Of a stretch of 64,000 nt of DNA, positions 10,796 through 63,819 are shown piece after piece (the stretch's first letter is position 1; each line of letters starts with the position of its first letter). The DNA lies in contig JAKSYS010000031.1 of NCBI GenBank assembly GCA_022925895.1, positions 1 to 64,000 of the forward strand. Reading direction: 5' to 3'. The position numbers were made by a program, and so were the translations under genes. This DNA comes from Fragilaria crotonensis (lineage: Eukaryota; Bacillariophyta; Fragilariophyceae; Fragilariales; Fragilariaceae). Under the pieces are notes generated by a model. The model searched no databases and was not told the origin of the DNA. It saw nothing but the letters and a program-made list of their open reading frames with translations.

Positions 10796-10799
10796 CCCC

Positions 10800-14250: not shown

Positions 14251-14449
14251 CCATTTGGGAGTTGAATGGTGGTAGCTCTGTTCTTGATCAGTACACTGAA
14301 ATTTTGAGTGCATGATAGAGCAGTCAGGAGAGTAGTCTGTGACTTAGGCCTTCAACAAAGTAGACATCAGTGAGACCTAGGATGGATTTGAGGCCATCAT
14401 CAGTGGTGAAGTGACATTCAGTTGTGCCTTTGTGGGTAGACATCTTGGT

Positions 14450-15446: not shown

Positions 15447-15479
15447 CTCCCTCACTCGTTCGACGTAGTCCTCTGGATC

Positions 15480-19660: not shown

Positions 19661-19669
19661 GGGCTTCCC

Positions 19670-20935: not shown

Positions 20936-21021
20936 TAAAGCACTTGACTTTGAAAAGCTTGAAGGTTAGTTTGATTGATCAAACAACAGCACTTGTCTTA
21001 TTACTTAGCGCAGAGGAAGCG

Positions 21022-21578: not shown

Positions 21579-22700
21579 ATGCGCGATTGTTTTGGTTGGA
21601 TCTTGGGTTGGTACAGTTGCGCGAATAGTGGCCGAGGCGTCCGCAGTTATTGCAGACGATGGTACCTGCGTTGGATGCAGAGTTGCGCGATTGATTGATG
21701 TTAGATCCATTGGTTGATGGCCGTTGATTTGGATTCAACGTTGGTCGGAAAGGTGGTTGATTGTTCCGTTGGGGTTGGTTGGATGGGCAAGGCGAAGGAG
21801 GTGGTGGGCGACGTTGATTCGGGTTGTTGAAAGGTGGTCGCGAAGGATTTGTAGGAGGTCGGAACGGGCGCGAATGGTTTTGCGGTGGTCTCGGTGGATG
21901 ACTTCTGTTTTGATTGTTGCCATTAGGGTTTGAATATGGGCGAAGGATGGAGCTGAAAGCTTGTTGTTGACGTTGTGTGAAAACACGATGGGTAGTTTGG
22001 GGTTGGCGCGATTGAAAATGGTGAGATTGTTGACGGGTAGAATGTGCGTGCTGATTGTAGTTGCGTTGATTTTGAGACGGTAGTGTGAGACCACGGGATT
22101 CGTCAATGTTGAGGAGATGGCTCTCAAGTTCGGCGAATGGTGGCAGAGCTTCGTCGTTTAGTTCAGCTCGGCGGATATCGGCGTCGAAGCGTTGATAAGA
22201 TGCGGCGTAAAAGGAGTGATTGCTTCCACCACGAACGGTGCGTTTGATGAGTTCGGCGTCGGTGTTGGGGATTCCAGCATGATAGCAGTCGCGCGTAAGG
22301 ATGCGGATGCGGTTTAGGTAAGAGGTGGCGACTTCATGATGTGGTTGTTTGATGGAACAAAAGCTTCTCGAGTTCGCTCGACATGATCAGGAGTTAGCGG
22401 TGCACAATGGCGTCGTAGAGTAAGAATCGCGGTGCGGGCGTCTGGTGGGCCATCAATGATGTGTTTTTGGCAGGGTCGCAGACGTTTGTAAAGATCAGGT
22501 TGTAAAGTGCGGTGCCGACAAATGGGTGTGAATAAGAGACTTGTTTGGCCAAAGATCAAAGACTTGGCGCGTCCACGGGAAATGTTGCAAACAATTCGAA
22601 GGTTGTCGATGAAGGTGTTAAAATGGCGGCGGCGTGTGAAGATCGGTTGGGTAAGCCAATTTGCGAAGGTTTGCATTTTGGCGTACTTCAAAAGCGTCTT
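21579..22700 (-). mobile_element. Outer element: gag part with CCHC zinc knuckle (fossil)
   Basis: A Pro/Asn/Arg/Gln-rich nucleocapsid-like region with one zinc knuckle (CNNCGRLGHYSRNC) at about 21.6-21.7 kb and a helical gag-like segment up to about 22.7 kb. The inner element cuts it just after the knuckle. Some breaks are present. Confidence 0.8.
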
Positions 22701-25700: not shown

Positions 25701-27840
25701 GCATCCGACTGGTTGTTGAGTTGCTGCTTTGGGTAGCTCATTAAGTGCCTCCAAAATTGGGTTAGTTGCTGTTTCTTCCACAAATTCCTCTTCAATGCTT
25801 TCAATGATCATGGGTTCTGGCATGATTTCAACTTCTGGTAAGACTTCAGGGTCAGGAACAGGGTCAGAAGCAGGGTAAAAGTTAACAGATGGCTTAGTTG
25901 GTGAATTATCACTGGGGGAGTAATAATTTTCACCAACATCAGCATAATCAGAGTCAGGGAAGAGGGGTAAATCTTCCAATTTGATAGGAACAGGATGCTG
26001 GACACTCAAGGAAGTGGAGGAAAGGCTGGGATCAGTGGGATTGTGGGCTCTGTAGGCACACTGGGGTGGACTGGATTGGATCGCCGTACCGTCCACGACA
26101 GTAAACTCGACAGTATCATCATCATCACAGTACGATTCCAAGGCCTTTTCTTCAGCAGTTAGGGGGCCGCGTGGTGCAAAGTGGACAAAAGGGTCGATAT
26201 CAAACGAGTCATCGGTAGGCGAAGCGGGCTGGGAAAATGGTCGAGTGGATGCGTCATCGGCAGAATGGTCATTGACGTTGGGACGCGGGGACGGTGTCTC
26301 AGGATAACACGGACTGTGAATACGGCGGTTGTCGGGGGACAGTGGCATTGACGCGAAGGGAGTTTGAACGGAATCTGGAGTTTCGGCACAAAAATTACGA
26401 GTCCCGAGTTCAGCGCTGCGGTCATGACACGTCATAGTTTTCGTTCGCGAGGCTGCAGAGTTGTCGACGTCCACCAATACGCGCGGGGGCGAGGGAAAAT
26501 TTTGAACAGTCATTTCTCGAGAACCATCTGTCGGAATTCGCTCAAATTTGGCCAGGATGTCGACCATACGGTGTGCTGGCGGCACGGAGTGTGAGTTTCG
26601 TTGCCCGATTACGCTGCGAACGAGGATGAGCAAATCAAGAATGGGCATCAACTGTTCATCTCCAGTCATCTTGATGGCAATTATGACAAGGTCTTCAAGG
26701 TCATCATGATGCTGTAGAAAGCCAGTGAACTCAGCAAGGGTTGGAGTATAACCAAAGGAAGCAATTCTGTGGGTAAAAGTGGCGATTTCTGACTCCAGGC
26801 CAGGATGACTGGGGTGGATGAGTGTGGGAGGTTCATTGGATTCTCCCTGGCACTGTTGTTGCTTTCTGGTTGAGGGAGGCTGATACTTTGATGGTGAAGG
26901 ATGGAAGGGAAGGTTAAAAAGATGAGCAAAGAGACAGTCATGGAGATCTTTGCAGGTCTTCTGAAGGGTGGAGAAGCCAGATGGATTCATGCACCCGGGA
27001 GCTTGAAAAATTGGATTGTGAGCAGGTTGGGCAAAGTTGGTCAAGGTGGTAACTTTTGCGGTAGGAATGCTTGGAGTGTTGGCTCTGGACTTGTAGGTGA
27101 GCGTGGGAGGCGAATTTGGAGCTTTCTGGGGCGTTTTCAAGTCGTTCGTATCATCGGTGAGATCGATTACGTTGTGTTTGTTGGGGTTAGTGCGGCGCTT
27201 GGCGGCAGTAGTAGTGTGCTCCTCTGTAGTAATAACATCAGTAGGTCCAATGTTATTGCTCATAACATTGGTAGATGCAGCAGGTAAGGTAGTTGGACCG
27301 TTTTTGTTTGTAGTTTCGCCCATTTTGTTGTAGGAGTTGCCCATGGTAGTTGTGGTTGTAGTGGTCTGCATCTTTGCAGCCTTCTTGGTGGTAGAAGTAG
27401 CCCTGTGGCTAACTTTAGTGTCCTGCTGTGGTGGAGCTGCAAAGCCTGCTGCTTGCGCTCGTCGGGGTGGAGGTTGCGATCCTCTTCAATAATATCATCG
27501 ATGTCGTCGGAGGTTAACTTGCAGACGTCAAAATAGGCGGGACCTTTCTCAGAGGTGCGCCTCTTCTTCTTGTTGTTTGGGAGGTCCTGATCGTCATCAG
27601 GGGTAGTGGTTGGAGAAGGGATGTAACGGACACGGGAGGGAGCTTGGATTTCTTCGGAGATCCATAGGCTAGGCACCTTTGTAGAGGGCGGGATGGGTGG
27701 GCGTGTCAGGAGGGACAGGAGATGCGCCGAGTTCGGCGGGGTAGTCGACGTTAGCGTCGAACGCGTCAGGTTAGCGCCTTTGGAGGCGGACCTAGAGGCG
27801 CGAGGGGCAAGGGAGGGCGGAGGTAAGTTCTGCATGGTGG
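22700..27840 (-). mobile_element. Outer element: long extra coding region upstream of gag (fossil)
   Basis: About 5 kb of largely open minus-strand frames lie between the 5' LTR and gag, a position where copia elements normally have a short leader. It comprises two large blocks of roughly 560 and 650 codons plus smaller ones. The first is Thr/Pro/Asp-rich and looks disordered. The second contains an aromatic and His-rich globular segment (IYALRLYYITHHRHSTYHRHG) and ends in a Lys/Thr/Pro-rich tail. None resembles a protease, integrase or reverse transcriptase, and I recognise no family. Confidence 0.7.
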
Positions 27841-28037
27841 ACTTAAAAGTTCTGTTGCCTTCAAGGGTGAGTTTAAATCCGTTGCTGGCGAATCCAAAAG
27901 GCGAGGGAAATTAATAGCAGTTAAGCGTAGGTTCTTAACGGCCGTAGGTAGATTCGACCAATGATCGGAGACATCATTGGTCGAGTATTTTTCCTCGACG
28001 GTAGAGCCTTGGACCGGTGGTACGAGGCGAGCAACCA

Positions 28038-28630
28038 TGACAGTATTCGTGTGATCGGTACGCGAGTACTGGCCGACGGTAGACTTAAGGTTAGTAGGAC
28101 CTAGAAGTCTGCCGTCGGACTTGACGGGAGAGGAAGCGAACGTGACGGATCGTCCAGCTTTGGGCGTGGGAGTCCTGAAGATGTGGACCATGATGGTAGA
28201 TTTGTTGTTACAAATATGTAGAAGATGTAGAACTAAGTAGTAAAGGCCTTTACTGTTTTTGGAAATTATAAGTTAAAATGTAGATGAAAAATGAAAGTGA
28301 GATCTCCAACATTAGTTGGAGTCTCACAAAAGTTATGTTGCTTTAATCCCACTTGTTGAGTGGTGTTTGAGTTATGGATCCCATAGTAAAAGTTGTGTTG
28401 TCAATAAAATTGACAACACAACAGATTTGAATACTTAGGGAAACTCAGGGCAACATAATTTAAATTCCTTGCGTGGTCGCGGGACCCAGAATTCTGATTC
28501 GCAGAACTACTGGAACGGGTCACGGACAGGCTAAGAAAAATATAGGACTGTCTATCGTATTACCGTATGGTTTTTAACCTTACAGTAATTACGAGTAACA
28601 GTGTGACAGAGTGACAGTAGATCTTTAACA
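28038..28630 (-). repeat. 5' LTR of outer Ty1/copia element
   Basis: 593 bp, near-identical to 10196-10795. Directly inside it the minus strand reads TGGTTGCTCGCC, a plausible primer-binding site start (TGG). A reading frame opens inside the LTR (28191) and continues past this site into the internal region. Confidence 0.95.
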
Positions 28631-28728
28631 CATCGAAGCATAGTCAATTCCTACCTACTCCGACTACTGGAGGTAGTTGCTACTAGGCATAGTAGCACTA
28701 TTCATACAGGCAAATGTAGGGTATCCAG

Positions 28729-29355: not shown

Positions 29356-30339
29356 ATGAACCGATTTCTCGTCGCCTTGTGCGTTCTCTTGTGCATTGCC
29401 ACTGGCGGTGCTACAGCTACGGATCATACGAGACTCGTCTTTGGCAATGACGCGGATGATGCTGCGGTGGTAAATGTCCAGTTGGATCCTACCGACATCG
29501 GTCATCGGGATCTCGCTTCAAGTTCATGCGATGTTTGCAGCAGTGCTACTACTGTCGTCCGGACTTTGAAGATTCGCTACGATTTGCCCTCGGCAACGTC
29601 TTCGTTGCAAGGCAAGAATGCCACTTGTGTTCAAGCGACCTATCCTGCGACTGCTGTTATTCAACTTGTGGGCTTTTCCGTCAACGTGAAACAGGGAACA
29701 GGAATCACCATTAACGGTAATATTCCCGGAAAGCTTGAGTTTACTATTAGTGGTTTCGGGAAGTGCTACATTGACGCATCTTGTTCCTCACCTCTCGTTG
29801 TCGGTGACAAGATTGGTCCATTCCTCGTTGTCTCTGGCAATGATTGCCCAGCACTTGCTCCCACGAGAAGCCCAACGAAGACGCCCACTACCAGGAAGCC
29901 AACACAGACGCTGACCAAGAAGCCAACTCAGACGCCAACGAGGAAGCCAATTCAGACTCCAACGAGGAAGCCAACACGGGCGCCAACCCGCGCTCCAACA
30001 CGGGCGCCAACCCGCGCTCCAACACTGACGCCAACCCGTGCCCCAACACGGGCGCCAACCCGCGCCCCAACGCAGGCGCCAACCCGTGCCCCAACACAGG
30101 CGCCTACTCGTGCCCCAACACAGGCGCCAACCCGTGCCCCAACACAGGCGCCAACCCGCGCCCCAACGCAGACTCCCACGAGCGCCCCAACACGGGCGCC
30201 AACCAGCGCACCAACACAGGCGCCAACCCGCGCCCCAACACAGACGCCAACCAGCGCACCAACACAGACGCCAACCCGCGCCCCAACACAGACTCCCACG
30301 AGCGCCCCAACACGGGCGCCAACCAGCCAGCCAGCATAG
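29356..30339 (+). CDS. Secreted Thr/Pro-repeat protein, copy 2
   Basis: This encodes 327 residues. The start at 29356 gives a clean signal peptide ([21 protein letters not shown]); the in-frame upstream ATG at 29302 would bury it and is less likely. Residues about 22-165 are nearly identical to copy 1 at 26 and hold the same Cys pattern (CDVCSS, NATC, KCYIDASC, NDC). The rest is a Thr/Pro tail of KPT, RAPT, QAPT and SAPT units ending TSQPA. It is shorter than in copy 1 and without the KPTEAPTR array. The tail is probably O-glycosylated and extended, so a cell-surface or extracellular-matrix role is inferred; the N-terminal domain may bind a wall component. It is convergent with the helicase, with a 565-bp spacer. 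Confidence 0.85.
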   Translation: MNRFLVALCVLLCIATGGATATDHTRLVFGNDADDAAVVNVQLDPTDIGHRDLASSSCDVCSSATTVVRTLKIRYDLPSATSSLQGKNATCVQATYPATAVIQLVGFSVNVKQGTGITINGNIPGKLEFTISGFGKCYIDASCSSPLVVGDKIGPFLVVSGNDCPALAPTRSPTKTPTTRKPTQTLTKKPTQTPTRKPIQTPTRKPTRAPTRAPTRAPTRAPTLTPTRAPTRAPTRAPTQAPTRAPTQAPTRAPTQAPTRAPTQAPTRAPTQTPTSAPTRAPTSAPTQAPTRAPTQTPTSAPTQTPTRAPTQTPTSAPTRAPTSQPA

Positions 30340-30904
30340 ACGCCAACGAAGAAGCCTACCACTACTAGGAGCCCTACAAGCACAACACTGACTTGAGCGC
30401 TGAGCACACCTAGGTGTCCCTCTATATGGACAGTTACTCTACTGTTGTAAGATTTGAATAGTGCAGTAAGACAAGTTTGTTTAGCAGATTGCGAGCATTG
30501 CGCATACTTTATCTTTATTCTTCACATTCCATCAACTCGACGAACTTCGGGTGTGACCTCCACTGCTCTTTCGTAGTGAAGAAGGCTCTTTCCCTTTACA
30601 CTTTACACATCTGTATCGAGTAGTACAGGGTAGGGAATTGAAAAAATTGTGCACTAAGACAGTAACACAACATGGAGGACTCGCAGCTGTTCAATTGTCA
30701 GATGCGCAAGACTATCACCATCGCGACTCCGAGAAATCTACTAGAGTAGCTGGAAACAGGTATTACGTGTGCTCAGTGTATCAAGTGCAATTACCTGCAA
30801 GCTCATTGGACGTAGTTTATCGTCTTCCACAATTCAACTAGGTCCACTAATGATTCGGCCCTCGTTCATTCGCATGCGAAAACAGTGATGGATTACGTTG
30901 ACCA
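30340..30904. other. Convergent intergenic spacer
   Basis: The shared 3' flank of the repeat-protein gene (+) and the helicase (-). A diverged copy lies at 1826-2386. No gene is seen. Confidence 0.6.
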
Positions 30905-32833
30905 CTACCACGATCCCGATCGTGGAGACGAACCGCTGGACCAGCTGCCGTAGTTCCCGGAGCCTACGAGACTCTCATCACGCACAAGGTTCAAAGGCTT
31001 GTACCGCCTGTCATCGCCACCTTCTCCTCGTCGACCAAAGTGATTTGTTTCTTCTAAAACAACACCTGGCACCCTGTCCAGACCAGTTTGCCTCGCAAAT
31101 TTAGCATTGATCGGTGGCGTTCTCGACAATCCCATGTGGGATGCCATGGAATTGCAAAACTCCACTAAACGTGGCAGCCCCGCGGTACCAACGCTCTTGA
31201 GTCTGCCGTTGTAGTACCCCAAGGCACTTCGATAGGTGTCTTCCGCTGCTTTGACGAGGGAAGCGTTGCTGTCGGTTCGTATAGATTCCAGAACAGAGGT
31301 CAACTCGCGCCGAACCTTGGATACGGCATCATCATCGTTTGCGTCCACCAGTGCCTGCAACTTCTCGTGAACGGGTATTTGGATTCCCTCTTGCTGCAAT
31401 GTTTCTAAAAATCCGGCCTCCTCTTCCGTCAAGACCAAAATCCCTTCTCCAGACGTACCCGCTCGTCCCGTACGCCCCAAGCGATGCACGTACGCCTCGG
31501 ATGACATTGGCAATCCAATTTGAATCACGTGAGTGACGTTGGGATAATCGACCCCGCGGGCAGACACGTCCGACGAAAACAGAGTTCCCTTCTGGAGGGT
31601 TCGGAATCGCTGGCTGACCGTAGTGCGATAGGCTTGGGTCTTTTTCGAATGAATTTCAAGAACGTAATGCCCACTGCCGCTCAGTCCGTAGTTAAAAAGC
31701 TTGGAATAGAATGATACCATGGACGTGGTGGGGAAGAAGACCAGAATTTTGGGCGGCTGGGGAGCAGAAGTGTCGTCGTCGTTTTTCCTGGCAGCTTCGA
31801 GTTCCATGAAATGTCGGATGATTTCGACGGCACCCACCACCATGTTCTTTTTCAAAATAACATGCGACTGACCGACAATCTTGCTTGTTTGATCAGATTT
31901 GTCCGCGCTGATGCAATCGATACGTTCAAAGTCTGGCTTCATAAAGTCGTGCAAAAACTTGAGGACAGATTCGGGGATTGTGGCAGAGAAGAGAAGCGTT
32001 TGCCGTTTCTCAGGGAGTGCGGATACAATCTCGGGCACATCATCACCCATATCAATGTATCGATCCGCTTCGTCAAGAATTAGAATATCAACATTCGAAA
32101 TCATGTCGCGGAAGGATTGACCATTGACAAACGTATTCCTCACGTGATCCGCGAGGCGGCCGGGCGTTGCCACTAATATAGACGGTAATCTTTGTTGCAT
32201 ACGATTGACGTCTTGATACTTAGGAATACCCCCAAACATGGTTTGATGAGAGAGAGGATGTTGGCTGGTTGCCTTCAAGAGTGCGTCGACCTGTGAGTCA
32301 ATCTGAAGCGCCAATTCTCTGGTGGGAGACAAGATTATTGCCTGAATCTTATTGTTGTGTTGGTGAGGATCCAGTTCCAATATCCTTTGAACGGCTGGTA
32401 TCAAAAAGGCAAATGTCTTTCCAGTTCCAGTGCGAGCTCGCCCCAACACATCTTTCCCCGCTGCAATGGGAGCATATGTTGCGGCTTGAATCGGAGTCAT
32501 GCGCGATATGCTCAAACTATCCATGGCAGCCAGCGTGCGCGGATCTAAACCAACAATATCCTTGAAATGTAGATCATTGACATCCTTTTCGTCAACGTTT
32601 GCATCCACGTTTTCCTTTTCTGTAGGATCTGAGTCTGAAAGGTCTACGAAATCATCATTGGTCGTGCTTGAAAACGACCTACGCGAGAAATGAAACTCCA
32701 TTCCTATGATTTGTCGCGTCGGTACAACCAACGACGATCCAGTTCTACATCCAATCTGCCGCGACGCGAGAAGAAACGATCGTGGCGCCGACGACGCGAC
32801 GCGGGGAACCAGACGAAGATACCGCCGCATCAT
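30905..32833 (-). CDS. DEAD-box ATP-dependent RNA helicase, probably mitochondrial
   Basis: This intact protein has 642 residues. In order: Q-motif region with TPIQ (113-116), Walker A ARTGTGKT (133-140), PTRELALQ (170-177), TPGRL (223-227), DEAD (254-257), SAT (283-285), ARGVDYP (425-431) and HRLGRTGR (450-457). Residues 460-642 are a C-terminal extension ending in a Ser/Gly/Arg-rich tail. The first 55 or so residues are Arg/Ser-rich, lack acidic residues and fit a mitochondrial presequence. A C-terminal extension plus presequence recalls the Mss116 group of mitochondrial helicases that remodel RNA structure and help splicing; that assignment is inference. The start at 32833 is the first ATG of the frame and supplies the presequence. 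Truncated copies lie at 2387-3530 and 63323-63719. Confidence 0.93.
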   Translation of the reverse strand: MMRRYLRLVPRVASSAPRSFLLASRQIGCRTGSSLVVPTRQIIGMEFHFSRRSFSSTTNDDFVDLSDSDPTEKENVDANVDEKDVNDLHFKDIVGLDPRTLAAMDSLSISRMTPIQAATYAPIAAGKDVLGRARTGTGKTFAFLIPAVQRILELDPHQHNNKIQAIILSPTRELALQIDSQVDALLKATSQHPLSHQTMFGGIPKYQDVNRMQQRLPSILVATPGRLADHVRNTFVNGQSFRDMISNVDILILDEADRYIDMGDDVPEIVSALPEKRQTLLFSATIPESVLKFLHDFMKPDFERIDCISADKSDQTSKIVGQSHVILKKNMVVGAVEIIRHFMELEAARKNDDDTSAPQPPKILVFFPTTSMVSFYSKLFNYGLSGSGHYVLEIHSKKTQAYRTTVSQRFRTLQKGTLFSSDVSARGVDYPNVTHVIQIGLPMSSEAYVHRLGRTGRAGTSGEGILVLTEEEAGFLETLQQEGIQIPVHEKLQALVDANDDDAVSKVRRELTSVLESIRTDSNASLVKAAEDTYRSALGYYNGRLKSVGTAGLPRLVEFCNSMASHMGLSRTPPINAKFARQTGLDRVPGVVLEETNHFGRRGEGGDDRRYKPLNLVRDESLVGSGNYGSWSSGSSPRSGSW

Positions 32834-33097
32834 GGCGAAATTGTTCTTTTACCAACCACCGACAGAGATGCGAAGGTCGAAGGACACAGGCCGTACTCCA
32901 GTGGTCCCCAGCATTGCGAGGTCTACAAATATGGATATTTTCATTTACAAGTATACCTCTACTGCGCATGTGTAGTAGTAGCGCAGCCAGCAGTACCGGT
33001 CTTGAAAGCACTATACTCAGGAAAAAATAAAATCTGAGATCTCGGCACTCAATCGGAACCGTGACAGCGATTCCGTATTGCATGATTGCATGTTACA

Positions 33098-35779
33098 TTA
33101 CCATCCCGGCATCTCCTCCAACCTATCTATGGCAAACCGCACTTCGTCCACAGTGTTGTAATGAGCCAACGAGAGTCGCACTACATGTTCGAACCCAAGT
33201 TCTGATTGGAGCTGCTCGGTTGAAAGAAAGCTCCCTTGTCGAACGGCAACTTTGTGTGCCGCTAGCTCCTTCACTATTTCTTCCGCGGAGATGCTTTCGT
33301 GACAAAATGCGACAATAGGAAGTCGGCGTGTGCAACCATGCGATGAAACTTTCGAGTTCAGAAGGCGCACCTTGTTCGAAGAGACACTTAATCGTCCTAT
33401 CAAGCATTCCACCAAGGAGTCCTCGACCATGGCAATACGACGATACGCTTGCAACACATGCTCACGTGTCATCATGTCGTTTGCCGACGAGAACGAGATC
33501 AGAGCAGCTTCACGTCGATCCTTGCGCTCGGTTTGACTCTGGCTTGCCGCCTGTTCTCCTTCCAAGGTGGCCAATCGCACGAAATACTCTGCCAAACCCA
33601 TGAGCCCAGCACACGATTCGTAGTTGACTGTCCCCACTTCGATACCTTCATAGGCAAGTGGACCACAAAGGATTCCCAAATGCGGTCCGAACAACTTATG
33701 ACAGGACACAACATACCAACACGAATCTAACCAGCTGGCAGCTGTTGTGTTGCTGCTGTTATTCGTTGGAATGTGCGGCACAGCAGCCACTCCATCCACC
33801 ACAATTTGGGCATGTGGACAACTCCGTCTAACGCGGGCAACAATGTCTTCGATGTCGCGAACTTGACCCAAAACGTTTGACGCGTGCGACAGAGCCACTA
33901 GTTTGACGCGATCAGAGAGGATTTCAACCAAGTTGGATCCGACCGGCCACCACTTGATGGTAACACCGACTTGCTCCGCCGCTTCAACCCATGGAGTAAT
34001 GTTGGCAAGGTGATTCTCAGTCGATAGGATAATCTCGTCACAAGATTGCCACGTTTGACTCAATTTTGGGGCTAACGATTGCAGCAGCGAGGTGGCATTC
34101 GCTCCAAAGTAGATACATTGCTGAGGGCCGCACCCAATCAGCGTCCTTGCCACAACGCGAGCGCTTTCCCGTTGACCGAACCCATTGACAGATCGATTTC
34201 GGCAAGAAAGAGACTCTTGCATGGCATCAATGACTGAGTAAGGAACTTGCGCACCGCCAGCGTTTTCCATGAAAATCAAGTGCTCGTTTGACGCATAATA
34301 CGGAAATTGGAGCCGAGCGTAGTTTGAAATGCAAGTTGGGGATAAATCCTTAGGCTCGATCTCGACCTTTTCAGGCGTAGCGTGCTCGATGACGTCACCC
34401 TCGTCTTCGTCTTGTTTCATTGCCTTGCGCTCAAAAATAGCCCATCGAATCTTGTTGAGAATGACAGCTTTCGACGGCAGAATGCCACTTTCCTCGCTTT
34501 TTCCGGAAAAGACGCAATTCCAACCTCCCACCTGTGACAGAGCTCCGGTTACCCGAGGCATCACCCAAAGTGAAATCAAATCCGAGATAACAGCATTGTG
34601 CAGATTCTCTGCGTGTGACAGACCCGTGGCGGTGTCTTGGGACGGTGGTGCATTCACTTCAAGCAAGTATGCCTTTCCTCCTTCTGACAAGATAAAATCC
34701 ATTCCTAGATATTCAAAACCACCATTCATCTCGCCTCCCTTGAGAAAGGGAAAGGAACGTTCTGCCAGAAGTGCTACCGATGCAACAATGGAATCATAAT
34801 AACGTGAAAGAGAAATAATCGGGCGGCCACAGTCAGTTTCGCTAGTTTCAGTCAAAACAAGGTCAGCACAGATTTCACCAGCGAATTTTTTCTTGTCGTG
34901 GGAATTGGCACAACAATTGGTAATGTGAACCGATGCTTCTTGGTAGTTTCCAGCGGTAAAGTCTTCATTGGCGACATGTAGAAAACATTTCCGATGAACA
35001 AATGCTTTGTGATCTGCAGTAAACAAGCCGTAGACTCGAACGTGACATTTTTTGCCTCCATACAAGACCGGCGGCCATGCATATTTCTGCGCTACATATC
35101 GATGTTCTTCTATCAAATTGCACCCTTCTGCAGTGAGAAATTGAGCGGCATTGTCGGGATTGACCATCCAAACCCCTCCAGCACCATTCGACATGGCGTC
35201 CTTGATGACCCATAGATTGGTGGGAGCTGGAGGATAGCTGCCAGGAATTGAGACGCCAACATCGAGCAAATCAGGAAAGTTACTCCGTGAGAAAGCTTCC
35301 TCTATTGGTTCCGGGTTTGGCGACTTGAACATGCCGACTTTATCACAAAATTGTTGAAATCCAGTTTTACCTCGAAAGCAATGACTTGGAAGTGCGCACC
35401 GATCGGTCTCCATTTCTCCGTCACGAAACAGTCGCGCTAGAGCCCATTTGCTATCCAAAACTGATAGTCCATTAGGAAGGTGAGAATAACACAACACCTG
35501 ATCCCTGTAGTCTCTGGTTTCCGGACGAGGCGCATTCTCCCACAAAAACAGGGGAGTTTGTTTCTCAGCGGCTGCAGCTGTTGTTGGGAGTAGTGTCAAT
35601 GTCGCTGTTGAATCGATCCATCCACAAGGAAGCAAAGGTTGAATGCGGGAATATGCCGCGCATCCAGTCACTTCAAAGTAAATGGTATCTTGTCGCCAAG
35701 AGTTGCCGTTTGCCTCCATCGTCGACTTGTTAGCATTCCTGCCCTCGAGACGTTTTTCAGCATTGGAGTGCAATGCCAT
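33098..35779 (-). CDS. Fusion of tubulin-tyrosine-ligase-like domain and class V aminotransferase-like domain
   Basis: One 893-residue frame. Residues about 185-410 have the TTL/ATP-grasp pattern: WVIKDAMSNGAGG (190-202), VAQKYAWPP (229-237), KKCHVRVYGL (243-252), HITN (285-288) and the metal/ATP-binding end YLLEVNAPPS (371-380). This class ligates amino acids to protein side chains using ATP. Residues about 495-893 are a PLP fold of the cysteine-desulfurase-like class: NAGGAQVP (506-513), NATSLL, TENHLANITPW, VDGVAAVPH with Asp662, the PLP-lysine motif SCHKLFGP (Lys695) and VRLSLAHYNT near the end. The loop that carries the sulfur-accepting Cys in true desulfurases reads RQGSFLSTE, without Cys, so desulfurase activity is doubtful. 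The start could also be Met21. No signal or membrane segment is seen. The joint role of the two domains is unknown. Confidence 0.88.
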   Translation of the reverse strand: MALHSNAEKRLEGRNANKSTMEANGNSWRQDTIYFEVTGCAAYSRIQPLLPCGWIDSTATLTLLPTTAAAAEKQTPLFLWENAPRPETRDYRDQVLCYSHLPNGLSVLDSKWALARLFRDGEMETDRCALPSHCFRGKTGFQQFCDKVGMFKSPNPEPIEEAFSRSNFPDLLDVGVSIPGSYPPAPTNLWVIKDAMSNGAGGVWMVNPDNAAQFLTAEGCNLIEEHRYVAQKYAWPPVLYGGKKCHVRVYGLFTADHKAFVHRKCFLHVANEDFTAGNYQEASVHITNCCANSHDKKKFAGEICADLVLTETSETDCGRPIISLSRYYDSIVASVALLAERSFPFLKGGEMNGGFEYLGMDFILSEGGKAYLLEVNAPPSQDTATGLSHAENLHNAVISDLISLWVMPRVTGALSQVGGWNCVFSGKSEESGILPSKAVILNKIRWAIFERKAMKQDEDEGDVIEHATPEKVEIEPKDLSPTCISNYARLQFPYYASNEHLIFMENAGGAQVPYSVIDAMQESLSCRNRSVNGFGQRESARVVARTLIGCGPQQCIYFGANATSLLQSLAPKLSQTWQSCDEIILSTENHLANITPWVEAAEQVGVTIKWWPVGSNLVEILSDRVKLVALSHASNVLGQVRDIEDIVARVRRSCPHAQIVVDGVAAVPHIPTNNSSNTTAASWLDSCWYVVSCHKLFGPHLGILCGPLAYEGIEVGTVNYESCAGLMGLAEYFVRLATLEGEQAASQSQTERKDRREAALISFSSANDMMTREHVLQAYRRIAMVEDSLVECLIGRLSVSSNKVRLLNSKVSSHGCTRRLPIVAFCHESISAEEIVKELAAHKVAVRQGSFLSTEQLQSELGFEHVVRLSLAHYNTVDEVRFAIDRLEEMPGW

Positions 35780-36081
35780 ATGCCGCTATGTCGCCATTCG
35801 AATCCGGGCTGTTTTTATGTAGTAGCTTCTACGTCTCGCTGTTACCAGGCATAGTGGCTACCACCGGTATGTAGAGGCTACTAGTAGGAGCTACGATCTT
35901 GGGACGGTCGCTGGCTTTTTGCCTGTACTGTAGTACCATGCTGAACAAGAGCGCCTACGACTGCACAGCGGACCGTGAAGTACATACATCTCTAAACACA
36001 AAACCATACTTTGCTCTTGTAGATCAAGCCTCATTGCTCATGTGTACCGTAGGTGAAACAAAGATGGGAAGTAGCATTTCA
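35780..36081. other. Intergenic spacer
   Basis: About 300 bp rich in TAGTAGC, GTAC and CCGGTA words. It holds the presumed promoter of the fusion gene and the 3' end of the LtrA gene. No gene is seen. Confidence 0.5.
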
Positions 36082-37389
36082 CTATGCTGTTGATTGGTAG
36101 GTAACTTCAGATGACTCACTCTTCAAATGCAGCAGTTCTGCAATTCTGGGGTTAGGAATCAAGTAAGGCTCCAAAATATGCGTAAACGTAGACTCGACGA
36201 GGCACACGCCAAACAGAAGGCCAGCATACATGGCAATCGAGGAAATCGGATTCTGAACTCTAAGCACAAGCCCAAGGAACGGCAAAAGGGCTGCTGCACC
36301 AATTAGAACCCACCAAATGTGCATTAGTCTCATGGCACTAGGTGGTTCGTTTCCAGTGGGAAAGACTCCGAGAAAATGTAGCATACGCATGACCACAAGT
36401 AGTGTGAAGGAACAACCAACACTGATTGACATGAGATTGATAGTAAAGTCAGTAAGATCTGTCCCTTTCACTATGGATTCAATCGTGAGTTTGACACAGA
36501 CTCCCACGGCCAAGACACTTGAGCACAGCAACTTGTGAACGATCATGAGAGAAACACCATGAATTCTGCTTCGTCGAAAAGCATGAAAGGTTGGAGGGGG
36601 CGTCATGGCAAAAAATAACAGTGTGTAAAAGAATACCAAGACGAGAGCCCAGAATAGAACCCAATAGTATTCCACTGCGAAATCAAGCGTCTCGGCACTC
36701 TCAACGACACGACGATGCTCAATGGTTGCAGAAATCACAGTCTCACCCAACATCACCAGCAGCAGAATTCCTAAACGATCCTTCGAATGCTCAATGTTGA
36801 TTGGAATTGTATCTTCTCGTTTCATAAAGGTCGACAAGATCGATTCCAGAAAGAGCTCGATCAGAGCGGAAAATGACAGAAGGAGAACGGCATGGTCGTT
36901 GAAGAACATCACCAGAGTGAAGATAATTATCTGAACAATGAGAGCCCCACCAAAAATTCTGCAAAACTTTCGAGCTCGCGGGATCGAAATGTAGACGGAC
37001 CATGTCATGAGTGCGATACTGAATCTCTGAAGCAACGCACCGGCAGCCAAGATGGTGGGTTTCTCAGCAATGCTCGCATTCACGATGCAGGTTGCAAAGC
37101 CGAATATGTAAAGGAACAAAATCAGGATATGAATAAACGTCCCATCCTCAAAGCGCGTTGTGATATGTGTATACAGTGTCGAACCATTGATGAAGAGGAG
37201 GATTAAAATCAAAAAATCGCGAACTCCCGAAAGTGTCGGATCTTCCTTGAGCCCGTCGGCGACTGCACTGGCGGCAGCCACCATCAAAAGATCCAAGAAT
37301 AACTCCCAGTACTTGGCAGCACCCTCTTCGGCTTCGCTATCCCAGTCTTGAAGCAAGATTGGGGCACCTACCAGCTTGCGGCCTGACAT
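36082..37389 (-). CDS. LtrA-family (low temperature requirement A) membrane protein
   Basis: 435 residues with about ten hydrophobic segments. The family's two hallmarks are present: KYWELFLDLLMVAAASAV (residues 26-43, the W-ELF-DL motif before helix 1) and NIEHSKDRLGILLLVMLGET (198-217, the H..ER-G...LGE motif). These proteins were named from Listeria mutants that cannot grow in the cold; the molecular role is unknown and they are frequent in algae. The acidic N terminus (DWDSEAEEG) precedes the first motif and there is no cleavable signal. The start at 37389 is the first ATG. The gene is single-exon. Confidence 0.88.
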   Translation of the reverse strand: MSGRKLVGAPILLQDWDSEAEEGAAKYWELFLDLLMVAAASAVADGLKEDPTLSGVRDFLILILLFINGSTLYTHITTRFEDGTFIHILILFLYIFGFATCIVNASIAEKPTILAAGALLQRFSIALMTWSVYISIPRARKFCRIFGGALIVQIIIFTLVMFFNDHAVLLLSFSALIELFLESILSTFMKREDTIPINIEHSKDRLGILLLVMLGETVISATIEHRRVVESAETLDFAVEYYWVLFWALVLVFFYTLLFFAMTPPPTFHAFRRSRIHGVSLMIVHKLLCSSVLAVGVCVKLTIESIVKGTDLTDFTINLMSISVGCSFTLLVVMRMLHFLGVFPTGNEPPSAMRLMHIWWVLIGAAALLPFLGLVLRVQNPISSIAMYAGLLFGVCLVESTFTHILEPYLIPNPRIAELLHLKSESSEVTYQSTA

Positions 37390-37696
37390 TGTGCTGTACG
37401 AGTGTGGCTGTTGACCTTCTCAATGTGATGAACGTGATCCGTTGGATTCTGATTGACGGTGTCGCCTAATGTGTGCAGTGTGCAATACGCAATTTGCCAT
37501 TAGACGGAAGGATTCAGTGTACCTGTATTTCTGTATACACAGATACACAGTGGTGTATGTTTGAACATTTTCCGGGGTATTATTAACTCGTACTCCTACC
37601 AGCTACAGTAGTTCTCAGAATTGCTATGCTGCATATGTGGGTTTCCCTGCTTTTGTCCGTCTCTGGAGAAAAGATTCGTTTCGGATCCGTCAGATT
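37390..37696. other. Intergenic spacer
   Basis: About 300 bp between the LtrA gene and the duplicated block. AT-rich, with short GTAC and TGTATACACAGATACACAG words. No gene is seen. Confidence 0.5.
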
Positions 37697-38638
37697 GATT
37701 CGCGATCTTGCAAACCGGATTATATGTCAAATTGTAGGAGACAAAACTATGGTTGCGCTCGATTCTGCTCGATGAGAATGGCAATGGGTCAGTTTGTACA
37801 ATCTACCAAGTACTCCAGTACAGCATTTAGCACTTCAACAAACGTAAAATTAGACATATAACATAAATCGTTATTGGGAAGTGAAAAGGGCGCAAGGCCC
37901 TGAAGAAGCTTGGTCGACTCATCGTGGACCTGTTCATCCTTCTCCCCGTCGTACTGGAACCACCAGGATGCTGGGCCACCCTGCCACACACTGTATGCTT
38001 CGATCACCTCGCCTGTCAATGCCAAGCTCTTCTCCAAAAGTTGCGAACCTTCTTCCATGTACACGCCCTGTTGGACCCGGGATCGTGTACGGAGCGTGCA
38101 GTCATTCTCCATGACAATCTTGACCAATTCGAAATTGCCTCGCGTGTTCAAGTGACTAACAATGGAAGCGCAATCCACAACGCAACGGGCACCCATGTAC
38201 AAAAGGTCGGGTTCAGCCACAAAAGGGTCGGCGTCGGCAGGGTAAAGGCAGCAGTCCTTGCCGATCGTGCCTCCGCTCCACCGAAAGTAGGCCGCCATGT
38301 ACGGTGTCCCCGAAAAGAAATCCAAAAAGTTTAAGCGAGAAAATTTTCGAAGCTTAGCAATCATTTGATGGATCTCCCATCGTTGAGCGTACGACGTGGT
38401 GTCGTAGTTGTACCGTCCCTCGACGCGCCTACCAATGAGCGTCCACGACTTGGCTGTAAGCTCAATGACAACCCACATCACAACTCAAAAAAAGTTTGCC
38501 AGTAGAAACATGCACAGAACAATAAAATAAATGAACAGAGGATGGTACACTTCGGTGTAGTCCCGACCAGTGAAGGACCACCCGTAGAGGAAAGCAGCGG
38601 CCCAGTGAAGCGCGGCCAAAAGAGGCATGGCATTAAAG
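37697..38638 (-). pseudogene. Duplicated 3' fragment of the NRPS-like gene
   Basis: Close copy of 56557-57523, the last coding part and 3' flank of the NRPS-like gene. The left edge is at GATTCGCGATCTTGC and the right edge at GGCATGGCAT. It encodes the ALHWAAAFLYGW membrane segment and the terminal beta-helix-like domain. Upstream domains are absent. A short insertion adds Ser (TAKSWTL versus TAKWTL), a frame change separates the membrane part (38485-38760) from the terminal part (38481-37789), and the C-terminal end differs. A run of unrelated retroelement gag sequence abuts it at 38640. No start or promoter is evident, so it is a dead copy. Confidence 0.88.
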
Positions 38639-38639
38639 G

Positions 38640-39330
38640 TTGAATTGCATGTGGAGGTTTGCAGCCTCCTTGTCCTTGAAACCAATGTCCAACAGTGCTT
38701 GCTCCAACTTCTGCTTGACAGACCTGAGTGGAAACCTGAAGTCTTCATTGCCTGAGCCACCAGCCAAAAGGAAGGTCATCAGCATTCCCAAAAGTGAGGT
38801 TGTGGTCATACTGGCCTGCCGTGGTCAACTCATTTGCATCCTTGCAAAAGTGCGCAGCCAATCGCTCAAGATTCTCCCCAGGATACTGACTTGGAAGCCT
38901 TGCCTAGATGGTTGCCTTGAGGTCTTCAAACCTCTCAATGGAAGTGGACTGCATTGACTTGAGGAACTGAAGCCAAACCACTGGGAATGAGTCTGCATCA
39001 TCCAACTTCTCTGCCACCTTGTTGCTCAACTCAGTGGCAAGGGGTGCCAACAAATAAGTCCTTGCTGCCATGTCATTGGTGCGATCAAACTTGTCGTAGA
39101 GAGGAACTTGAGCTTCTGCGAGAAGCTTGGCAGATTGAACCGTGTACCTGGCATGAGCCTTGACCACATTGGTCATCTTAGTGTCATCAGTTGGATCCCT
39201 GAGGTAGGCAATGGAGTCCATTCTAGTTTCCTTGAGATGCTCCCAAATGACATTCTGGAAGCTAATCAAATCATCAGCTGGCTTGAATGGAGTCTTGTGG
39301 CCAGATCTCCTGAAGTTGTAGCCTTTCTGG
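38640..39330 (-). mobile_element. Ty1/copia gag fossil fragment
   Basis: Minus-strand frames carry segments typical of diatom copia Gag: WLQFLKSMQSTSIERFEDL, ELTTAGQYDHNLTLGML, and FRFPLRSVKQKLEQALLDIG. No LTR or pol part is attached. It is broken and old-looking, with about two or three breaks. Confidence 0.72.
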
Positions 39331-56556: not shown

Positions 56557-56758
56557 TTGATTCGCGATCTTGCAAACCGGATTTTATGTCAAATTGTAGG
56601 AGACAAAACTATGGTAGCGCTCGATTCTGCTCGATGAGAATGGCAAGGGGTCAGTTCGTACAATGTACCAAGTACAGCATTTAGCACTTCAACAAACGTA
56701 AAACTAGACATACTATAACATAAATCGTTCTTGGGAAGCGATAAGGGCGCGCCTGCTC

Positions 56759-59700
56759 TTAAACATTGTAATATGAGGCCTTTCCCTGAAGAAGCTTGGT
56801 CGACTCATCGTGGACCTGTTCATCCTTCTCCCCGTCGTACTGGAACCACCAGGATGCTGGGCCACCCTGCCACACACTGTACGCTTCGATCACCTCGCCT
56901 GTCAAAGCCAAGCTCTTCTCCAAAAGTTGCGAACCTTCTTCCATGTACACGCCCTGTTGCACCCGGGATCGTGTACGGAGCGTGCAGTCATTCTCCATGA
57001 CAATCTTGATCAATTCGAAATTGCCTCGCGTGTTCAAGTGACTAACAATAGAAGCGCAATCCACAACGCAACGGTCGCCCATGTACAAAAGGTCGGGTTC
57101 AGCCATAAAAGGGTCGGCGCCAGCAGGGTAAAGGCAGCAGTCCTTGCCGATCGTGCCTCCGTTCCACCGAAAGTAGGCCGCCATGTACGGTGTCCCCGAA
57201 AAGAAATCCAAAAAGTTTAAGCGAGAAAATTTTCGAAGCTTGGCAATCATTTGATAGATCTCCCATCGTTGAGCGTACGACGTGGTGTCGTAGTTGTACC
57301 GTCCCTCGACGCGCCTACCAATGAGCGTCCACTTGGCTGTAAGCTCAATGACAACCCACATCACAACTCGAAAAAAGTTTGCCAGTAGAAACATGCACAG
57401 AACAATAAAATAAATGAACAGAGGATGGTACACTTCGGTGTAGTCCCGACCAGTGAAGGACCACCCGTAGAGGAAAGCGGCGGCCCAGTGAAGCGCGGCC
57501 AAAAGAGGCATGGCATGAAAGGTGACGATAAACATCTTGATGTTGAAGGACGCACAAACGATCCATTCCAGAGGCCAGACAAAGTAGCTCGCTTTCTTCA
57601 AGTAAAAAGCTTTTCCAAAAGGGCGTAGAGTCGAGTCATCGCCTGCCATAGTGATCATGTCTTGCTTGACCTCAGACGCCATCATAGGAACAACGAGATC
57701 GACTTCCGCACCCTTGTCAAGACAACTCGGCTCGCCTCCTGAGGAACCAAGCCAGACGCTGCGCTCGGGGAGGTACCAGCCCTCGGGACAGACCGAATTA
57801 GAACCAAGGACTGCACTCTTGCCAACGATACTACCAGGAAGTACCACACAATTGTCAGCAACGTTGGATCCGGCACACAAAATCACTTTTTCGCATGAAT
57901 CTGTCGTCGTGAAGAAAATGGACGAACGAGATCCGAATACAACGTCGTCGCCAATCTCCAGCAGGTCGAATTCTCCGGAGAAGGTGGGCTGGTGGCCTGG
58001 CCAAAATACTCGTGATCCAACCTTGGCCCCAAGACAGCGATACAAGACACTTACAAGCTCGTAGTGGCGACCAATCAGGTCCGTAATGTCTTGGATTTTA
58101 GCTCGAGAAAAGAGAGTGGCGGCAAGCGCATGACGAACCAGCTGCCACTGGCTCAGAGTGTCTCTTGGGCCAGCTTTGAAATCGCCGATAATTGTTTTCT
58201 TAACGAAAAGTGCTGCAGCCATGTAAAAGAAAGGCGAAAACAAAGCGCGCGCAACACGTATACCAATGTAGTATCGGATACGTTGAGGATCGCACAACCA
58301 TCGCATCAAATCATTCCAAGTCGAGAAGCAATCGGAGTGATCGCCTTTGTACTTGAGCATGAGAAACAAAACAAAGAAAGGGGGAATCTGACTAACCACA
58401 TTCACAAGAAACGTTGTCGGCCCGATGACAAAAAGCTGACGCCACAAATCCGGTTCGGGAAGGCACTTCCGGTTAACACGAGCATGCTTGACATCCAAGG
58501 CATTTCCGACATCATAGCTCGACGTCCCGGGCCCAAGGTGGCTGTGGTCTGGAACAGACGTGTACGGAGCTACGACGGACTTGGCTCCCAGGCTTGCATA
58601 GTTACCAACCCTGACAGGGCCTAGCATCATGGCGCCATTGTCGACACCAAATCCTCTCAGGGTTGCATATTCGACGGCCGCCCCGTCTCCAACTTCTACA
58701 AGGTCGAATTCCGCAACGTCACATTCGAGACTGATGCGAGCGCCTTTACCAATCTTAGCCCCCAATAAGCGATAATAAGTATTCAGAGAAACCTCATTGC
58801 AACCCCAGATTCCTCGAAGAAAAAGTTTACGGCAGACATCCACAAACCACCAGCGCAAGTAGTAGGAGCCCCAGATAGAGTATCGGCCCGGTTTGTATCG
58901 ACCAATGACCGTCCACTTAATAATAACGAAGACCAAAGGGGTCACTGTGATCCAAATAGTGTGGAAAGCCAGGTATGCAAAAATGAACTTGCCGATATCT
59001 CTGTCGCCTGGAACATTGTCAATACTCCAGAGCAAGAGACAAAAGAAAAGAAGGTATCTGGTCACTTGCCAAATCGGAAAGATGAAAAACATCGGTACCA
59101 ACTGAAACAGTGCGCCACCCAACGAGTATTGCGGAGCCAGGCGATTTGTTTCAAATGGCGCTCCGTGGTCCGAAACGCTCTTGTTACTTAAACTCGTGCC
59201 ATCCTGAGACCCACTCGTGAGACTCGCAGACGAGGAGGCAGTGAATCCGTCACTGCGATGGCGAATGAGTTTGGCCATTTCATTCGAGCTGGAGTGCTGA
59301 AAGACCTCTGATCCGCTGCAGGCAATCGCAAAACGCGTTCGAATCTTGCTAGCAAACTGCGACGCCAACATTGAACTTCCACCGAGGTGGAAAAAACTTG
59401 CATCCGGAGCTGGGAGGTAGTCCAAATCAAGCATTTCGATAAACATGTGTTGGACCAGTTGTACAACCAAATCGACAGGTCCCGAGGCCTGCTCGCCTTG
59501 CAGAATCGAGGCAACAGCGTCCGTCATTTCGGGTGGCGGAAAGGTTCGGGAAACGTAAGCCACTTCCGACGTTTCCACAAAGTGAGATGGCACAAGATAA
59601 CGATCCATGCTTGCGATTGCAGTCTCGAGCGCCTTGGTACGATCAATGTTGACCAGATAGCAACAAAAGGCACCGGCTCGACTCGGATGAGGTACGACCG

Positions 59701-62004
59701 CCAGTCGCTCATGACCGCCGGGCTTGACCAAAAGGGGGGTCAACTTGCGTTCCATATCGCTCGCATCCACAGAAACGGCACGGGCTGGAATGGGCACATC
59801 AAGGCCGGTCCCCTGAGGAGGACATGTTGCCTCGAATGTGCGCTCTGTCGTATGCATGGCATCCGAAAGTTCCGGCAACTGAAAGCGACTGCCCAACTTG
59901 ACACGCAACAACTTGTTGGTATGACTTTTGGGCAGCCCTCCATCCATGAAGACCAAGCATTGCGGCCATTTCGGCGCCGCCAAACGCTCTCCCAAAAACT
60001 CGTGCAGACTTGGCAAATCTAGGCGAGGACGACCACCCTTCATTACGATCACGATACCAACCACTTCCTGCAAGACGGAATGCACTGCCGAAAAAGCGGC
60101 ACACGTCACGACGTCGGGATGACTCGTGACAGCTTCTTCGACTTCCATGGGGCTAATGATTTCACCTCCGCGATTTATGACTTCCTTGGATCGGCCGGTA
60201 ATAAAGAGATAACCATCCTGATCCATGTAACCCAAATCACCAGTGTTGAACCAACCCCCCTTCAAAAACGTGGCCTCGTTTGGTGACGACGTCTCAGTGG
60301 CAATTTTCCCGTAACCAAGGAAGCATGGAGTCCCGCGAATACAAATAGGGCCTTCCTCGTTTGGCTGAAGCGGCGTCACAGTCATGATGTTCAAAATGGC
60401 CACTTCGGGGCCAACGGGGACCCCCGATGTACCAGGCTTTTCCAACCGATACGTGGAGGGTGGAGACGAAATGGGCATACATTCCGTCATTCCATACGAA
60501 GGCAAAACCTGTCATAGATTCACAAGAACAAGTGCGTGTGTGTGAGTTTTTAATAAATCGCTGCACATTTTTGCATGCTGCTCGACAGTTTTCGCGTTTT
60601 TTTATTGATAATGAACGTACATTGGCGTCAAAAGCGCGCATCATTTCTTGCGCCAAACTTGGCAGAAGACCACCTGCTGCATTGGCAATCATCCGTAGCT
60701 TGTAGGGACAAGCACCAGTTTTTTCGCAAACATGTCCATCGTCGCGGCCTTGTTGCAAAATGAGCTGATGCATGGTCGGTGCCGCATAGTACCAGGTGAA
60801 GGCCGGCACAGTTGCAGTTAGTGGAAGTGGCGTCGTCTTGACTGTCGTGAGAAGTGACCAAAAAATGGACGGATCAAACGAGGGGCAGCAAATGACACAC
60901 CCACCCGAGAAAATGGGACTAAAGACTTGTCGAACAATTCCACCAACTGTAAAATAGGAATAAATTGTTTTGGGGTACGCGCGTATGTGAGAGTGAGCGA
61001 ATAAGAAGGGGGGAAGGCGCGCATGAATGCAAATCCAATGGACAATAGAAGAAAGCGACGCAACTGAACCACGTACCGTGGAAGAGGGGCATGAGGTTGA
61101 TATTCACATCACTTGGTGTCAAATCCCAACTGAGCGCAATTGTTGCCGCGGCTGTCATGATTTCACTCATGCAATGGGGAACCAATTTCTTGTTCCCTGT
61201 CGTACCAGACGTGAACAATACCAAAACCTCATCCTCGGCAGAGTTTGGTGTCATCGTAGCATGAGTCACAACGCCAACATCCACCTTCTTCGTAATCATG
61301 CCGTCCTCGATGTTCGTAATGTTGTGCTTGCTCGTCTGCTCTGCGTGGCATGGTGCTGTCGTTGTGGACAATGATGCTTGCAGGGCGAAAATTCCAGCTT
61401 CTGTTTCACTGGGAATCAAGGCAACGAACTGTATGCTCAACTGATTGGCAACATTGCGGATCATCTCCGCATCGTGTAATGCAATCACAACATCTGCTCC
61501 ACAGCGCTGTAAATCGGCACATAATTCCTCACAAGGAGATGATGCCGACAATGGCACAGCACACGCATAGTGTGACGTAGCGAGGATGGCCAGGGCCAAT
61601 TCCGGACCATTGGGTAAAACAAGGGCAATCCGTTGTCCTTTACCAAAACCACCGAGCACGGCATGGAGTGCCATCGCACTAAACTCGTCGCGGATGAACG
61701 ATCGGATCCGTGCATGATGAATAGGCTTGCGTCCATCGATCGATGCGAGGGCAGGATGGCCATGATTATCATCATCACCATCACAGTACACTGGAATTGC
61801 ATCGCACATGGTTGGGAAGAGGGTTAAAATCGTATCAGCAATCTCGCGTCCCACAATTCCACCATTTGGACGTAACAAGTGAAGGCATGATGCCAAAAGT
61901 GGAGCGACACGCCGATTTATAATGTCCGTCTCACCAATCGGACCATTCAACTGAAAGCTATCAACGCTACCACTCGGCAGGAGAGTCTTCACTTGAGGTG
62001 GCAT
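56759..62004 (-). CDS. NRPS-like adenylation/carrier protein with membrane beta-helix C-terminal region (Pls-like), three exons
   Basis: Proposed exons are 62004-61077, 60946-60621 and 60508-56759, with GT-AG introns of 130 nt and 112 nt (both start GTACGT). They join in phase to 1667 residues. An adenylation domain spans about 100-640: FTSGTTGNKK (264-273), SYGMTE (421-426), GGWFNTGDLGYMDQDGYLF (502-520) and KSHTNKLLR at its end. A carrier domain follows with FFHLGGSS (Ser797 the likely phosphopantetheine site). The remaining 840 or so residues alternate membrane segments with left-handed beta-helix (hexapeptide) stretches, as in the NRPS terminal domain of bacterial poly-lysine synthetase Pls. 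This architecture activates an amino acid and joins it at the membrane; product unknown. There is no condensation or thioesterase domain. A copy of the 3' end lies at 37697-38638. Confidence 0.88.
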
Positions 62005-63322: not shown

Positions 63323-63719
63323 TTAGCACCTCCTCCATCGCACCATTTTCGACTTGTGCAGCACTGGGAGCATATGTGGGAAGGCTTGAATCGGAGTCAT
63401 GCGCGATATGCTTACTTCCATGGCAGCCAGCGCGCACGGATCTAAACCAACGATATCCTTGAAATAGCCATCGTCGACATCGTTTTTGTCAACGCTTGCA
63501 TCCACGTTTTCATTTCAGTAGGATCTGAGTCTGAAAGGTCCGCGAAAACATCATTGCTCGTGCTTGAAAACGACCTACACGAGAAGTGAAACTCCGTTCG
63601 CAAGATTTTGCGCGCCTGTACAATAGACGACAATCCCGTTCTGCATCCAATCCGAGAAGACGCAATCGTGGCGCAGACGACGCAACGCGGGGAACCAGAC
63701 GAAGATCCCGCTGCATCAT
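63323..63719 (-). pseudogene. N-terminal fragment of the DEAD-box helicase (third copy)
   Basis: A diverged copy of the first 120 or so codons of the helicase at 30905-32833. MMQRDLRLVPRVASSAPR corresponds to its start, and DLSDSDPTE, YFKDIVGLDPCALAAM and ISRMTPIQA follow in shifted frames. Homology ends just after the Q motif, before the Walker A box. At least two frameshifts lie between the parts, so it is dead. It is more diverged than the copy at 2387-3530. Confidence 0.85.
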
Positions 63720-63819
63720 TACGAAATTGTTCTTCTGCCGACACGCTGTCCGAGCAGCGAAGGTCAAAAATCAACGGAAGAGTGATGGAATCAAGAAATT
63801 GAGCAGATGAAGGCTCTTC

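Follow-up and report, generated by a model that had tools for sequence, protein, structure and literature searches.

Few homopoly(amino acid) synthetases have been characterised. Those known of the Pls type are loaded with a diamino acid, which is polymerised by a tandem of three C-terminal domains that have been modelled as beta-helices (available parts of PMC10522769, PMC4668381 and PMC8117764). The first of these sources describes, in the sections available, the pocket Asp and Glu of homopoly(amino acid) synthetases as well conserved and PosA as inactive without Asp217 or Glu221, both of which are essential for the diamino acid. Here, we analysed a gene of Fragilaria crotonensis with the same domain order, located on the minus strand at positions 56759 to 62004 of a 64,000-nucleotide stretch (the window; positions 1 to 64,000 of contig JAKSYS010000031.1, assembly GCA_022925895.1). 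The window is part of contig C252 in a genome of 62 Mb and 881 contigs. An earlier note on this DNA had read it as a complete Pls-like NRPS gene. Judged from its sequence, the adenylation half is of the FadD7/oxalyl-CoA-synthetase class and is not Pls-like, and the back half is genuinely related to the Pls/PosA terminal domain, although it has diverged from it greatly. We assign a probability of roughly 0.5 to the reading that this nuclear diatom gene encodes a single-chain membrane enzyme for acyl loading and acyl transfer.

The adenylation domain (59867 to 61755, minus strand, about residues 84 to 632, a span that holds both introns) retained the motifs TSGTTG, YGMTE and TGD as well as the A10 lysine, K617, and carried PLFHVGG in place of FDxS. 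Its top NCBIfam profile was NF004511 (FadD7; E value = 5e-69), with a score of 233.3 bits that is below the curated cut-off of 650, and its nearest solved relatives in the PDB were oxalyl-CoA synthetases (AtAAE3, 5ie0, E value = 1.4e-58; 6qjz, 5.5e-58; 8aff, 4.2e-47). The region was 34% identical to a free-standing FadD7-type protein from a Methylobacterium plasmid (E value = 2e-73, 246 bits) and 21 to 27% identical to four plasmid-borne Pls-type proteins (E values from 8e-6 to 0.002). Profile, solved relatives and the trees described below agreed in placing the domain in the FadD7/oxalyl-CoA synthetase class.

The substrate pocket of the diatom protein was examined in an alignment with 27 members of its class, 8 further acyl-activating sequences and 6 Pls adenylation domains. 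FDxS(V/L/I)E was present in all six Pls rows, and the diatom read PLFHVGGIVRQ; in an alignment of 70 Pls-type proteins, the conserved pocket Asp corresponded to H309 of the diatom. These residues suggest that ordinary amino acids would not bind to the loading half. The diatom also departed from its own class: LFHxHG, present in 27 of 27 class rows, was LFHVGG with the second His lost, and R(S/N)xS, again in 27 of 27, was ANAA. We take the second His of LFHxHG and the R(S/N)xS residues to be the oxalate contacts. Because the diatom has neither LFHxHG nor R(S/N)xS, it appears unlikely that the enzyme is an oxalyl-CoA synthetase.

Relatives of the adenylation unit were searched in 292 and 386 cyanobacterial genomes (overlapping draws), 398 genomes of Methylobacterium's phylum and 294 of Schlesneria's phylum. 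Across these searches a single relative stood out, in genome G223 (L131:3979-12021): a protein of 2681 amino acids with the nonribosomal peptide synthetase-polyketide synthase (NRPS-PKS) order TubC_N, condensation, adenylation, carrier, ketosynthase (KS), acyltransferase (AT) and carriers. Its module aligned with diatom residues 63 to 812 (about 750 residues, linker and carrier included) at 31.8% identity (E value = 2e-87, 308 bits), and the linker stretch RTFxAT was common to both, as ERTFEAT against PRTFVAT. Genome G1019 harbours a second copy of the module, 79% identical to that of G223, and among 47 adenylation-domain rows the A5 motif TE(C/S)MPI(S/C)SP occurred only in the diatom, G223 and G1019. 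In two maximum-likelihood trees these three formed a clade (support 100/99) that stood apart from AAE3/Pcs60 and far from the Pls adenylation domains. The clade was retained in the second tree after the removal of seven rows, namely L034 (wrong open frame, branch 7.9), own_L005, L121, own_L006, L116, L122 and L120; the L123 row of alignment A3, a wrong slice, was not used, and L163 was included for the trees.

The membrane/beta-helix part was matched in three stretches by TIGR02353, the NCBIfam profile of the Pls/PosA terminal domain (E value = 6e-59), at 200 bits, which does not reach the curated cut-off of 423.1. All on the minus strand, its repeats are C1 (58520 to 59002, about residues 921 to 1081, with KPGRYSIWGSYYLRWW), C2 (57743 to 58240, about residues 1175 to 1340, with the Pfam Hexapep match at 1295 to 1324 inside) and C3 (56813 to 57406, about residues 1453 to 1650), in which H1575 is retained (57040 to 57038) and EDRxMK is lost. 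Hydropathy peaks at residues 879 to 912, 926 to 954, 1116 to 1137, 1406 to 1430 and 1441 to 1476 suggest that this part is embedded in the membrane; two further peaks within the adenylation domain are surely not membrane helices.

A scan of prokaryotic genomes gave 336 relatives, 80 of which were retained (one labelled archaeal). They yielded 77 frames, 70 of them full length, and the other three loci had no plus-strand frame of more than 500 amino acids that passed the filter. The closest of the 80 was a protein of the planctomycete Schlesneria (23.6% identity over 891 aligned positions, E value = 9e-41). We counted 202 columns that were at least 93% conserved in the alignment of the 70 full-length proteins; the diatom matched at 42 of the 95 in the adenylation domain, 7 of the 15 carrier columns, 15 of the 22 in C1, 14 of the 31 in C2 and 19 of the 39 in C3, and three annotated controls from outside the set matched at 88 to 95, 14 to 15, 16 to 22, 29 to 31 and 37 to 39, respectively. 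All 70 prokaryotic rows and all three annotated plasmid controls carried the C3 block HLxEDR, and the diatom read HLNTRGNFEL, with HL alone retained. In a terminal-domain tree of 43 rows (midpoint root, no outgroup), the diatom branched outside all 42 remaining rows, with a branch length of 6.6 changes per site. None of the 77 Pls-type frames carried an adenylation domain of the diatom type (best score over that region, 58.9 bits), and the fusion of this type with the Pls terminal domain was found neither there nor among the frames of the FadD7-type loci L115-L130, L134-L161 and L131-L133, which sample the matches from the 292, 386, 398 and 294 genomes searched. Two records labelled Acinetobacter phage (CAKLQH020000021.1 and CAKLQF020000019.1) also contain a relative of the terminal domain, at 22% and annotated entF_2, which is possibly bacterial DNA within the record.

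These comparisons bear on whether the protein is a true Pls/PosA poly(diamino acid) synthetase that has diverged in sequence and yields an isopeptide homopolymer. The domain order is identical, the Pls/PosA terminal domain is recognisable and a fungal epsilon-poly-lysine synthetase is known (available part of PMC7179176), so eukaryotes are able to carry the family. However, the pocket is without the Asp and Glu that are both essential in PosA (same part of PMC10522769), the adenylation domain comes from a different class, the EDR kept by 70 of 70 prokaryotic relatives is lost and the TIGR02353 score is below the cut-off, and we consider such a synthetase unlikely. The poly-lysine synthetase architecture claimed in the earlier note stands in its domain order of adenylation, carrier and membrane/beta-helix parts, and the NRPS terminal domain that it named was found by profile search, below the curated cut-off, but the adenylation half is not Pls-like and HLxEDR is reduced to HL. 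The adenylation pocket, which it proposed to check, is not Pls-like, as the Asp/Glu pair of FDxSxE is missing. Phylogeny put the adenylation domain, on a long branch, with the cyanobacterial module. The isopeptide or poly-amino-acid product that it suggested is weakened by the missing pocket pair, the other adenylation class and the loss of EDR, and its link to silica-binding polyamines or defence found no support in this analysis.

Between the two halves lie a linker (59468 to 59866, minus strand, about residues 633 to 765) and a carrier. The linker has no A10 lysine motif and is probably a decayed second adenylation subdomain (A_sub), an identification that is moderately supported. Its residues 654 to 735 aligned to the A_sub of two Azospirillum Pls-type plasmid proteins, in the same alignment that continued into the terminal domain; the other two of the four plasmid Pls-type proteins gave no match to the linker. 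For 29 of the 77 genome frames, the terminal-domain alignment reached back across the linker, with its start at position 654 or 655. An A_sub profile built from 68 such regions scored 4.1 bits on the excised linker, a value reached in 3 of 2000 shuffles, and -0.4 bits within the whole protein; the cyanobacterial linker scored 21.1 and 14.4 bits, respectively. No Pfam match to AMP-binding_C was found in the diatom linker, even at an E value of 10. The peptidyl carrier domain (59243 to 59467, minus strand, about residues 766 to 840) reads FFHLGGSSML, with S797 as the predicted phosphopantetheine serine, and a phosphopantetheinyl transferase match elsewhere in the genome (PF01648, E value = 7e-15) is a candidate for arming it. 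The canonical condensation domain PF00668 had no match in the diatom protein at an E value of 0.001. In the G223 protein, an additional A_sub-like stretch was present between the condensation domain and the FadD7-type adenylation domain (L131:3979-12021; 19.4 bits excised, 13.7 bits within the whole protein), and the cyanobacterial adenylation domain seems to have been inserted among A_sub remnants.

Since the loading half is of a different class and seemingly unable to bind ordinary amino acids, the product is probably something other than poly-lysine. A loader that lacks the amino-acid pocket, a lost invariant block and a retained His make a membrane acyltransferase with its own acyl carrier the most economical reading. 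In the three-step scheme that we propose, the FadD7/oxalyl-CoA-synthetase-class domain would adenylate a carboxylic acid other than a plain alpha-amino acid, the acyl group would move to the phosphopantetheine arm at S797 of the fused carrier, and the three membrane beta-helix repeats, probably via H1575, would hand it, in a single or a repeated transfer, to an acceptor with an amine or hydroxyl group. We infer the type of substrate and the acceptor, that the enzyme is active and, by analogy, that H1575 is its catalyst. The position of the closest loader after a condensation domain hints that the substrate may bear an amine or hydroxyl that is free and lies elsewhere than on the alpha carbon.

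In a narrower version of this scheme, the odds of which overlap with those of the scheme and are not additive, the carrier would receive a plain carboxylic acid, with which the terminal domain would acylate a lipid, polyamine or protein a single time, with no polymer formed. FadD7-class adenylation-carrier units are N-terminal loaders in bacteria (adenylation-carrier-condensation in four of five scanned proteins and adenylation-carrier-thioesterase in the fifth), and EDRxMK, constant across the polymerase family, was lost while the His stayed. The unit of the closest relative, however, follows a condensation domain in an assembly line, an arrangement that points to a substrate bearing a nucleophile itself, and we entertain the single transfer as a possibility, with clearly less than even odds. 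It is quite unlikely, in our estimate, that the chimeric loader and Pls membrane polymerase join acids without an alpha-amino group (e.g., omega-amino acids such as beta-alanine or GABA) into a nylon-like polyamide or acylate long-chain polyamines. We know of no product of this kind from Pls enzymes or from the cyanobacterial assembly lines.

The final 0.8 kb or so of the gene and its 3' flank have a broken copy 19 kb away (37695 to 38640, minus strand, 92.9% identical to 56557 to 57523). It sits just upstream of an LtrA-family gene (36082 to 37419, minus strand). The copy reads SHLNTRGNFEL, the same residues as the gene at the C3 block, which makes a read error there unlikely. The comparison of the gene with the copy gave a dN/dS of 0.28 (8 silent and 8 replacing changes), a value that fits a constrained protein. 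A gene that is decaying or inactive would be in keeping with this broken copy nearby and with the great branch length of the terminal domain, but 5 kb of coding sequence remains open, the adenylation domain has kept its catalytic motifs and K617 and the carrier its serine, and the dN/dS speaks for constraint; we regard decay as very unlikely.

Several points weigh against the three-step scheme. The diatom adenylation row has a long branch in both trees (1.6 and 2.1), and its placement was flagged as unsure by the tree tool; the dN/dS estimate rests on 16 changes only. So divergent a terminal domain, without EDRxMK, may be inactive or have a different function, and no hydropathy peak above threshold corresponded to the fourth of the six transmembrane helices, in three pairs, that characterise Pls/PosA synthetases. 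The catalytic role given to H1575 is an analogy with LpxA-type enzymes. Beta-, gamma- and omega-amino acids or hydroxy acids would look alike to a sequence-based prediction of the substrate, and an amino acid could conceivably be bound in some other manner.

The gene model itself was as the earlier note had described it, complete and in three exons. Exon 1 (61077 to 62004, minus strand, 928 nt) encodes residues 1 to 309 and ends after one base of codon 310, comprising an N-terminal extension and the first half of AMP-binding; exon 2 (60621 to 60946, minus strand, 326 nt) runs from the remainder of codon 310 to residue 418; and exon 3 (56759 to 60508, minus strand, 3750 nt) encodes residues 419 to 1667 and the stop. 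Spliced, they form a single open frame on the minus strand, with 1667 codons followed by a stop. Both introns on that strand are of the GT-AG type, start with GTACGT and terminate in ACAG: intron 1 (60947 to 61076, 130 nt, phase 1) reads GTACGT...TTTTACAG, and intron 2 (60509 to 60620, 112 nt, phase 0) reads GTACGT...ATGACAG. Neither length is divisible by three, so removal of both is required to maintain the frame, in line with the eukaryotic residence that the note had claimed. The exon junctions fall inside aligned AMP-binding sequence, between PLFH and VGG and between FDAN and VLPSYGMTE. On the 1667-residue protein, Pfam matches above their cut-offs were AMP-binding (110 to 484), AMP-binding_C (540 to 617), PP-binding (770 to 833) and Hexapep.

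The diatom-like genome of the note was also borne out. The silicon-transporter family had 19 matching stretches in the 62-Mb genome, 18 of them above the cut-off, and in a control search 1 of 14 genomes gave a match, below the cut-off; the matches therefore indicate a diatom genome. Three silicon-transporter units lie in tandem in one open frame of 1456 amino acids (G000:C97:29749-33762; L009, L012 and L013), similar to the multi-transporter genes known from Synedra and other diatoms (available part of PMC6114903). Bacterial contamination was rejected because of the two introns within the gene, the retroelement in the window and the diatom genome. A viral origin was rejected after three scans of viral contigs gave no relative (single-protein queries, within reach of close relatives only). 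We also rejected a duplicate of the diatom's own acyl-CoA ligase, as the best other matches in the genome were 26 to 38% identical, with a best E value of 2e-11.

Elsewhere in the window, a retroelement region (10196 to 28631) contains a Copia-type RVT_2 reverse transcriptase and two near-identical pairs (10196 to 10796 with 28038 to 28631, 98.5%; 14883 to 15446 with 21015 to 21578, 99.8%), and looks like a young long terminal repeat element nested inside another. A segmental duplication (1376 to 3525 with 29890 to 32042, 89.6% identity) covers the end of a PT-repeat protein and part of a DEAD-box helicase, and another (32460 to 32881 with 63358 to 63768, 82.4%) puts one more partial copy of the helicase, the third, beside the synthetase gene. 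At 33098 to 35785, a tubulin-tyrosine-ligase domain and a class-V aminotransferase domain share one frame, a pairing of which we know no other case.

If the proposed function is correct, this eukaryotic version with a loader of another class shows that the Pls membrane terminal domain can pair with a different loader, and it offers a concrete, testable enzyme for a diatom product yet to be named. It also cautions that domain order alone is a poor ground for naming genes poly-lysine synthetases. Some fungal proteins may have similar domain lists, and similar chimeras may already have been annotated under different names in diatoms or fungi. In the open-licence literature we found no diatom poly-lysine synthetase or comparable diatom enzyme, including in the available parts of PMC4594904, PMC6562964 and PMC7763478 and in PMC7335047.

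Compared with known systems, the diatom protein shares with Pls/PosA (TIGR02353) the order of adenylation domain, carrier and three beta-helix repeats with hydrophobic segments, the KPGxYxxWGxxYxRWW block and the HL of the C3 block. Pls/PosA differ in the class of the adenylation domain, in the Asp/Glu pocket and in the presence of EDRxMK, and the diatom scored 200 bits against the 423 cut-off. The fungal Epls of Epichloe is likewise a eukaryotic gene with the order A-T-TM/C1-C2-C3, but it is described in the available part of PMC7179176 as sharing 51% identity with Streptomyces Pls and as having its lysine pocket conserved. AtAAE3 (5ie0) and yeast Pcs60 (8aff) are of the same adenylation class and are the nearest solved structures; their solved chains, at 514 and 543 residues, are too short for a carrier and a membrane part, their signatures HVHG and RSCS are lost in the diatom, and the diatom lies outside their clade. 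The G223/G1019 module has a FadD7-type adenylation domain, an A_sub-like linker and a carrier, as the diatom does, and is its sister in the trees; it differs in that it retains PLFHIHG and the linker GKIDRK and, in G223, from which alone its surroundings are taken, is placed between a condensation domain and KS-AT-carrier-carrier.

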